This document shows, in pieces, positions 45,109 through 46,262 of a DNA stretch of 64,000 nucleotides; within the stretch, counting starts at the first letter, position 1, and every line of letters begins with the position of its first letter. The position numbers and the translations under genes were made by a program. This DNA is from Rhodovibrio salinarum DSM 9154 (GTDB taxonomy: Bacteria; Pseudomonadota; Alphaproteobacteria; Kiloniellales; Rhodovibrionaceae): assembly GCF_000515255.1 (NCBI RefSeq), contig NZ_KI911559.1, positions 3,228,693 to 3,292,692 of the forward strand, in the 5' to 3' direction. Under the pieces are notes generated by a model. It worked only from the letters and a program-made list of their open reading frames with translations, was not told the DNA's origin and did no database searches.

Positions 45109-45437
45109 ATTTTCAGGTTGAAACCTGCCCCCAAAAATCCATTCATTTATCTTCACCCGAATCACGGGAAAGCAATATCTGACACACCACGCTCACAGAA
45201 CATCAAAATAATTATGATATGCGCACGTCTAATCCAATAAATATTTATATTCACCCCAATGAATCATAAAGAACTGAGAATCACGAAGACCGGACCAAAA
45301 TGACACCCAATATCCAAACCGAATGGGCCTACCGACGGCTATCCGATCAGACTTTCGTTCGAAACACGGGTTGGAAAGGGTGTCGCGCGCCGCTCTGCGT
45401 GGTTGTTCATAACGTCGGGCTTGGCTAGCCTCGTTAG
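45109..45437. other. AT-rich divergent intergenic region
   Basis: About 330 bases between the receiver gene and the riboswitch, AT-rich (about 45,170-45,290). It should contain the promoters of the receiver gene and of the riboswitch transcript. A 75-codon minus-strand frame (45229-45456) lacks family features and overlaps the riboswitch. Confidence 0.4.
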
Positions 45438-45639
45438 CGTCGACGGTTCCCGACAACGGGGATCCGAGGGAAGCCGGTGCAAGGCCGGCGCTGCCCCCGC
45501 AACTGTGATCGGCGAGCCGCCTCCCGCGAACGCCACTGAGGCACGTGTCCTAGAACAGCGCAAGCTGGGGGCCGGACACGACCTTGGGAAGGCAGAGGGG
45601 CGGCAACGACCCGTAAGCCAGGAGACCTGCCGGTCGACG
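45438..45639 (+). ncRNA. Cobalamin (B12) riboswitch
   Basis: The class I cobalamin riboswitch hallmarks are seen in order: GGGAAGCCGGTGCAAGGCCGG, the CTGCCCCCGCAACTGT B12-box-type segment, GCCACTG, and the 3' element AAGCCAGGAGACCTGCCG. The P1 stem is visible as CGTCGACGG at 45438-45446 pairing with CCGGTCGACG at the 3' end. It lies 46 bases before the ATG of the PCuAC-like gene on the same strand, with a CGAGGC/GCCTCG hairpin between, which may be the expression platform. It should reduce expression when adenosylcobalamin is plentiful. Boundaries are approximate. Confidence 0.92.
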
Positions 45640-45685
45640 CAAGCCAATACACACGCGAGGCGGAGGGCCTCGGAAAGGAAAAGAC

Positions 45686-46162
45686 ATGCTGAAGAAATTC
45701 ATCATCGCGGCCGCTTTGACCCTCGCCGCCCTCGCGCCGGCAAGCGCGCACCACGAGGGGGAAGTGACCGCCAAGCACGGCATCAAGGTCAGCCACGGCT
45801 GGACCGTCGCCACCGCGTCGATGTCCGACGGCATCGAGGTCTACATGACCATGTGGAACGAAGGCGAGACGACCGACAAGCTGGTTGGGGCGGAATTGCC
45901 GTTCGCCGACGACGCCGTGATCCAGGCGCAGTCGATTTCCGAAGACGGCGAATTGGAGATGCGCGATCTCAAGGCCGTCAACCTGAAGCCGGGTCAGGCG
46001 ATCACGATGCACCCCCAGGGCGTGCACCTGGTGTTCAACAACGTTCAGCGGGTGCTGCGCGCCGGCGACAGCTTCCACGCGCATCTGGAATTCGCCAAAG
46101 CCGGCGAGGTCGAGGTCGAGATCACCGTCATGGCGCCGGATCACGCCAAGGAAATGATGTAG
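45686..46162 (+). CDS. PCu(A)C-like periplasmic metal chaperone family protein
   Basis: A signal peptide (FIIAAALTLAALAPASA) is cleaved before HHEGEVTAKHGIKVSHGW, leaving a His-rich mature N-terminus. The beta-barrel body follows the PCuAC/DUF461 layout (GIEVYMTMWNEGETTDKLVG, then LKAVNLKPGQAITMHPQGVH, then DSFHAHLEFAKAGEVEVEI). However, the copper ligands of the classical HxM-type site appear altered: where members have EIHEM this protein has VIQAQS, and where they have HLML it has HLVF. It may bind another metal. GGAAAGGA lies seven bases before the ATG. The upstream cobalamin riboswitch suggests a role linked to cobalt or B12. Confidence 0.8.
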   Translation: MLKKFIIAAALTLAALAPASAHHEGEVTAKHGIKVSHGWTVATASMSDGIEVYMTMWNEGETTDKLVGAELPFADDAVIQAQSISEDGELEMRDLKAVNLKPGQAITMHPQGVHLVFNNVQRVLRAGDSFHAHLEFAKAGEVEVEITVMAPDHAKEMM

Positions 46163-46218: not shown

Positions 46219-46262
46219 AAAAAAAACGGGGCGGCACCGATGGGGGCGGTGCCGCCCCGTTT
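46219..46262. terminator. Strong bidirectional terminator
   Basis: A 15-bp perfect stem (46224-46238 with 46248-46262) is preceded by eight A, which read as a T-run on the minus strand. It serves the convergent PCuAC-like and MetX-like genes, ideally for the minus strand. Confidence 0.9.

Follow-up and report, generated by a model that had tools for sequence, protein, structure and literature searches.

In the genome of Rhodovibrio salinarum DSM 9154, a full-length cobalamin riboswitch precedes a gene for a small protein of the PCuAC fold, and the protein belongs to a clade that has lost the Cu(I) ligands of the PCu(A)C copper chaperones and gained histidines. In our judgement there is about an even chance that the clade protein is exported, repressed by B12, and serves B12 synthesis by capturing a divalent metal, most likely Co2+. 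The parts are of known kinds; as far as found, the combination of a B12 switch with a ligand-exchanged PCuAC protein is new. The source genome is a single contig of 4.18 Mb, and the whole stretch of DNA analysed, 64,000 nucleotides in length, is called the window. The features concerned are listed below in window coordinates.

45427..45649, + strand: cobalamin riboswitch aptamer RF00174, full length (cmscan)
45656..45672, + strand: hairpin CGAGGC-GGAGG-GCCTCG between the aptamer and the ribosome binding site (conserved place and loop)
45674..45679, + strand: AAAGGA, Shine-Dalgarno-like, 1 nt 3' of the hairpin (sequence; putative role)
45686..46162, + strand: PCuAC-fold protein, 158 aa, with predicted signal peptide (PF04314, 76 bits)
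45686..45748, + strand: predicted signal peptide, residues 1-21, cleavage after ASA (A-x-A rule, by eye)
45749..45754, + strand: codons of His22 and His23, predicted first two mature residues, invariant in the clade (16/16)
45794..45796, + strand: codon of His37 (S-H-x-W), invariant, aligned with the HPW His of PmoF1/PmoF2 (16/16; PDB alignments)
45827..45829, + strand: codon of Asp48; His in the other 15 clade members and in 0/100 other PCuAC rows (alignment)
46025..46033, + strand: codons of H114-L-V116, where canonical PCuACs have the HxM copper ligands (alignment)
46224..46262, no strand assigned: GC-rich terminator-like hairpin between this gene and the convergent one downstream (consensus match only)

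The preliminary description of this DNA had proposed a riboswitch in front of a PCu(A)C-like protein. According to the covariance-model scan (cmscan), RF00174 matches with 101.1 bits against a cut-off of 31.5 (E 4e-24) over model positions 1-189, and this is the single Rfam match of the whole window at the gathering threshold (45427-45649, + strand). The gap to the gene had been given as 46 bases, a value that depends on the chosen end of P1; counted from the end of the Rfam match, the spacer before the ATG is 36 nt. The gene runs from the ATG at 45686 to the stop at 46162, and the protein matches PF04314 (PCuAC) with 76 bits against a cut-off of 29.4 (E 2.6e-21), so that the family assignment also holds. 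All 13 members in alignment A3 match PF04314 at E<=0.001. The protein begins with Lys-Lys and a hydrophobic stretch, followed by ASA|HH, and Ala21 is invariant across the 13 members of A3. The predicted mature protein therefore starts with His-His-Glu-Gly-Glu (ASA|HHEGE) by the A-x-A rule. The gene stands alone. According to the translations, a response-regulator-like ORF lies upstream on the opposite strand, and an alpha/beta-hydrolase-like ORF lies downstream in convergent orientation. No Sco gene was noticed near the gene in the same part of the window.

Relatives were searched for with the window protein against 58 relatives, and with alignment A1 against the genome contigs (best 80 of 431 loci). 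The contig scan with the single window protein gave no relative, whereas the scan with A1 did. Profiles of the clade were then run against 61 genomes of the own order, 385 of the class and 398 of the phylum, and also against the order of G075 (17 genomes), the family of G291 (31) and the order of G483 (397). Sixteen distinct members with the mature AHH start were obtained, from at least three orders of alphaproteobacteria: the window protein and those of Rhodovibrio sodomensis (L046), G006, G019 (Fodinicurvata fenggangensis), G023, G027, G013, G483 (Salinarimonas ramus), G482 (Fulvimarina pelagi), G075, G291, G479, G480, G689, G591 and G614. At the cut used, the clade is infrequent in the even draws (5/385 in the class, 3/398 in the phylum and 4/397 in the order of G483, with at most nine candidates per genome scored), and it was found in 6/61 genomes of the own order, where members were told by a gap in E-values and by their sequences. 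The 398 phylum genomes, a thin sample outside the class, gave only three members that were already known. The R. sodomensis protein is 78% identical to that of the window and has similar neighbours; it is the nearest named relative among the best 80 of 431 loci.

In a tree of 116 PCuAC rows (112 different; the 100 non-clade rows include duplicates), the 16 members form one group with support of 97/70, recovered in 96% of the bootstrap trees. In the tree as drawn, the clade adjoins (85/89) a second PCuAC from the window's own genome, which has a long branch and is also without HxM; it is encoded on the - strand (L044 6283-6759), at none of the seven riboswitch sites of this genome. A canonical PCuAC near Sco1 is retained in the same genome, and it is fused to a Cu/Zn superoxide dismutase domain (L045 7204-8202, + strand).

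RF00174 was detected by cmscan directly upstream of the gene in 14 of the 16 clade members. Chance occurrence of the riboswitch at the window gene is ruled out, since these relatives share it. Within 900 nt upstream, a B12 box with zero or one mismatch was found at 5/6 clade loci and, with fewer than two mismatches, at 0/74 non-clade PCuAC loci, where both sets come from the best 80 of 431 loci, some of the 74 are near copies of one another, and some non-clade PCuACs end longer ORFs whose start may not be reached by 900 nt. The nearest non-clade locus is L094, with two mismatches in the box; at L028, which encodes a protein identical to that of L094, no riboswitch was found by cmscan. RF00174 is likewise absent by cmscan from 15 non-clade loci of the order and from L124, L075, L102 and L057. 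Thus the search for other PCuAC genes behind B12 riboswitches, suggested at the outset, gave 14/16 within the clade and 0/74 outside it by the B12-box scan. In G006, the match that heads the clade gene is the single RF00174 match of the genome. The gene neighbourhoods vary among the clade members; since the surroundings differ, riboswitch and gene have stayed together, and the link of the clade gene to B12 control is kept across several families and orders.

The leader between aptamer and start codon has a common anatomy. A hairpin of 5-7 bp with the loop GG[ACT]GG is present at the same position in 11 of the 14 riboswitch-linked members; three of its five inner stem pairs vary, with both sides changing, and in most members a Shine-Dalgarno-like stretch follows it. 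In L010, L011 and L158, where the spacers are 120-127 nt, this hairpin was not found in the scan (an apparent hairpin in L010 is spurious and was excluded from the set of 11). No terminator-like site was found on the + strand between the aptamer and the start codon. In other cobalamin riboswitches, P13/L13 docks with L5 when B12 is bound. The hairpin 45656..45672, which we take to be the equivalent and name P13/L13, is probably this element of the expression platform. As the hairpin precedes the start codon in 11/14 members and would dock with L5 as P13/L13 does, the anatomy suggests that B12 control of the clade gene is translational repression. The window riboswitch itself would bind adenosylcobalamin and repress the gene.

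The ligand residues of the clade differ from those of the family. The Cu(I) ligand His80 is present in 99 of 100 other PCuAC rows, Met92 in 99, His114 in 100 and Met116 in 99; at the same positions the clade has His80 in 0/16, Met92 in 4/16, His114 in 3/16 and Met116 in 1/16. The HxM motif is accordingly found in 0/16 clade members against 99/100 other rows. In the window protein, Gln80 stands for His, Leu90 for Met and Val116 for Met, and His114 and Met92 are kept. The altered copper ligands of the preliminary description are thus a property of the clade, as none of the four positions is conserved over the 16 members. The clade does not have the H...M...HxM set of Cu(I) ligands of a functional PCu(A)C chaperone. 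Other residues are gained or fixed. His22 and His37 are present in 16/16 members (71/100 and 68/100 in the other rows). His23 is present in 16/16 against 2/100 elsewhere, together with an inserted G-[ED], and His48 in 15/16 against 0/100. The window protein is the sole member with Asp at 48; the R. sodomensis protein has His. Position 131 is His in 9/16 members, and the mature protein of every member is free of cysteine. The mature N-terminus had been called His-rich; His22 and His23 are indeed invariant, but 'two N-terminal histidines' describes it better. Because the Cu(I) ligands are lost, His23 and His48 are gained and His22 and His37 are invariant, the ligands thus appear to have shifted from soft His and Met, which suit Cu(I), to His (with Asp) and a free N-terminus, which would suit a divalent ion.

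The mature window protein was modelled with AlphaFold2 using 50 aligned sequences (pLDDT 91.5, pTM 0.83). The best Foldseek hit of the model is Cu-bound PmoF1 (6p1e_B, E 5.2e-11, TM 0.89 by target), followed by PmoF2, and the first 11 hits are PCuAC-type copper chaperones. PmoF1 is also the first PDB sequence match of the single window protein; with the clade profile, the PCu(A)C chains 9rez and 9rf0 lie slightly above PmoF1. The clade therefore shares with the PCu(A)C family (PF04314) the Pfam domain over the cut-off, the fold and the predicted export, but it is without the conserved H, M, H and M ligands of Cu(I), and it has the N-terminal HHxG[ED], His48 and the B12 riboswitch. With PmoF1 and PmoF2 (6p16, 6p17, 6p1e, 6p1f and 6p1g) it shares the mature N-terminal His and the His of HxW. 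The PmoF-type requirement of a His at mature position 1 and a second His is seen as an invariant pair in the clade, on the basis of the predicted cleavage site. The 6p1f chain starts with His and has the HPW His at position 12, so that its pair is at 1 and 12, whereas the clade pair is at mature 1 and 16. The clade also adds a second N-terminal His and His48.

These likenesses bear on the choice of metal. The clade protein might be a Cu(II) histidine-brace protein like PmoF1, which under B12 shortage would clear periplasmic copper that competes with cobalt at the importers, or whose copper would serve a process that replaces a B12-dependent one. PmoF1 is the best match both by Foldseek and by single-sequence PDB search, His1 and the HxW His are both kept, and the same genome has a plastocyanin/azurin-type gene in the downstream part of a riboswitch-headed operon. 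The copper site of PmoF1 is a histidine brace, a type of site that mainly holds copper (PMC10952591, excerpts). The clade, however, gained His23 and His48, which are absent or nearly absent in other PCuACs, and it is tied to a B12 riboswitch, so that we regard this alternative as unlikely, though worth keeping in view. Nor is a copper enzyme known to us that takes the place of a B12 enzyme here. Against the cobalt reading, the closest solved structures bind copper, and histidine braces often prefer Cu2+ or Ni2+.

The cobalt reading is set in the B12 regulon of the organism. Seven RF00174 sites over the cut-off are present in the own genome. Downstream of the other sites are a Peripla_BP_2 ABC operon, CbtB with CbtA, CobU with a CobW-domain protein, a TonB-dependent receptor, HupE, and one short unnamed ORF. 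The short ORF (- strand, 1114-1572) stands alone behind RF00174 (L003 1501-1689), just after an azurin-type gene. In another riboswitch-headed run (L043 9222-12530, C1 near 3,899,000-3,902,600), genes for Peripla_BP_2, an apparent permease and an ABC ATPase are followed at the end by a plastocyanin/azurin-type gene (PF00127), another fold of copper type close to the B12 regulon. HupE and CbtAB have the same riboswitch class as the clade gene, and both are behind riboswitches in the own genome; they are membrane transporters, whereas the clade protein is predicted to be soluble and periplasmic. CobW supplies cobalt for B12 synthesis (PMC7689651, excerpts), but it is an intracellular GTPase of unrelated fold.

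The occurrence of CobN, the cobalt-inserting chelatase subunit, and of HupE was compared between carriers and non-carriers of the clade gene. The non-carriers are 48 of the 55 in the order, without G032, G036, G040, G043, G058, G059 and G060, six of which are less than 90% complete. CobN was matched in 13/13 searchable riboswitch carriers, 11 of them over the cut-off; the matches in G479 and G480 are fragments in incomplete assemblies. Among the non-carriers 45/48 match, 43/48 over the cut-off, and the count in carriers is therefore not special (Fisher p 0.48). CobN as a specific partner of the clade protein is ruled out by the same 45/48. HupE (PF04955, E<=0.001) was found in 11/13 riboswitch carriers and 21/48 non-carriers (Fisher p 0.009), in 11/15 against 21/48 when the two riboswitch-less carriers are included (p 0.043), and in 10/13 against 14/48 at E<1e-20, a cut chosen after seeing the table (p 0.0026); all these p values are too small, as the genomes are related and non-independent and different orders are compared. 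HupE was not found in G075 and G480, and G689 gave a weak match only. The predicted first mature residue of HupE is His in 23/23 loci read (L193-L215), four of which have His-His; these are 23 of 30 loci, the other seven being a fragment or weak matches. A perfect B12 box lies upstream of five HupE genes of non-carriers.

Published work connects these gene types with cobalt. The classes of genes behind cobalamin riboswitches are B12 synthesis, B12 transport, cobalt transport and isozymes of B12-dependent enzymes (PMC3766115, excerpts). Since the clade protein would be a soluble, B12-repressed metal catcher, the cobalt class among these fits it best. HupE moves cobalt in a cyanobacterium, and some HupE genes are controlled by B12 riboswitches (PMC7689651, excerpts). 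According to the available text of PMC12537917, exported His1 proteins are binders of Ni2+, Co2+ or Cu2+ that show little or no enzymatic activity, and where His1 domains are fused to HupE/UreJ-2, the authors propose metal capture for the permease. The two tested domains of the fused kind favoured Cu2+, and Co2+ made Ang-1 slightly less stable (same excerpts). The HupE/UreJ-2 of that work is Pfam 13795, and the family searched here is PF04955. The clade protein is like anglerase Ang-1/Ang-2 and DUF4198/DUF6702, as described in the same text, in being an exported domain with His1 and proposed metal catching. It differs from the Ang-1/Ang-2 domains fused to HupE/UreJ-2 in being separate and soluble, with the PCuAC fold and a B12 riboswitch; no transmembrane fusion was seen, PF04314 being the sole family at E<=0.001 in P0001.

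On this basis the cobalt idea of the preliminary description is plausible, and a mechanism can be outlined. When adenosylcobalamin is plentiful, the leader RNA would fold so as to keep the hairpin by the ribosome binding site in place and translation shut off, as its anatomy suggests. When B12 is short, the protein would be made and exported, and cleavage of the signal peptide would expose His1-His2. Together with the His at mature position 16 and the His (Asp in the window protein) at mature position 27, His1-His2 may form a nitrogen/oxygen site for a divalent ion. This putative site, with ligands taken from conservation, would stand in for the lost His/Met site of Cu(I). Co2+ caught in the periplasm would raise the supply to inner-membrane importers, for example HupE or CbtAB, and with more cobalt at hand CobN could insert it. 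In its full form, the proposal is a dedicated extracytoplasmic cobalt-capture protein under direct control of a B12 riboswitch, built on a PCuAC scaffold whose Cu(I) site is swapped for an N-terminal four-His site (three His and Asp in the window protein), and a soluble counterpart of the HupE-fused metal-catching domains. To this form we give somewhat less than an even chance.

In place of cobalt, the protein could handle nickel or zinc, and the B12 switch would report on a shared uptake of nickel and cobalt. In some bacteria HupE/UreJ has a link to nickel uptake (PMC7689651, excerpts), and DUF4198 and DUF6702 with His1 prefer Ni2+ (PMC12537917, excerpts). Control by a B12 riboswitch, however, points to cobalt or corrinoids, and no nickel gene adjoining the clade gene was noticed in the members read. 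We therefore consider nickel or zinc improbable. Against the cobalt reading itself, the members read show no cobalt transport gene beside the clade gene; what comes closest among metal-type genes is that of an ABC-3 permease in Salinarimonas, convergent and about 1 kb downstream. Methane oxidation genes near a clade gene were not seen either.

Two carriers, the sister genomes G013 and G027, keep the clade gene without the riboswitch. No cobalamin match was found in their flanks by cmscan at E up to 5 (L012 and L013), by which a hidden riboswitch is ruled out, and G027 is also without RF00174 in scans at the gathering threshold (L050; L041 7000-9700). CobN was not matched in either genome, and HupE was found in 0/2. 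A single event may account for the lack of both riboswitch and CobN in these sisters. Since both keep the gene without riboswitch, CobN and HupE, the function of the clade cannot depend wholly on B12 synthesis. Their retention of the gene would also suit a general periplasmic factor, whose B12 link, though the riboswitch is active, would be an accident of one ancestor inherited by all. The link nevertheless persists along long branches and in varied neighbourhoods, and the two losses are in sister genomes without a CobN match; an accident of this kind is thus hardly probable.

Least probable of all is that the protein binds corrinoids in the periplasm and helps B12 salvage, an idea of the preliminary description without specific support: a BtuF-like ABC operon and the gene of a TonB-dependent receptor do lie behind riboswitches in the same genome, but the modelled small beta fold is like that of metal-binding PCuAC, the conserved N-terminal His pair is typical of metal chelation, and no btu gene adjoining the clade gene was noticed in the members read.

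A B12 riboswitch before a PCuAC gene is not named among the open-access PMC papers listed, in part the top matches of long lists, and the ligand exchange of the clade was likewise not met there; no open-access paper was found with both PCuAC and cobalamin. The clade would bear on how scarce cobalt is captured outside the cytoplasm and steered to B12 synthesis against competing copper and nickel, and it offers a natural experiment on a change of metal site in a copper chaperone fold. Since the protein is small and soluble, shows a clear ligand exchange and is under a B12 riboswitch, it is amenable to purification and testing, and it is available from the named strains Rhodovibrio sodomensis, Fodinicurvata fenggangensis, Salinarimonas ramus and Fulvimarina pelagi. 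In F. pelagi, the gene of the B12-switched protein is convergent to an apparent canonical PCuAC gene (L053 4995-6319). In G480, a gene of the chromate-transporter family (PF02417) follows that of the B12-switched protein on the same strand (L161 1504-3202).
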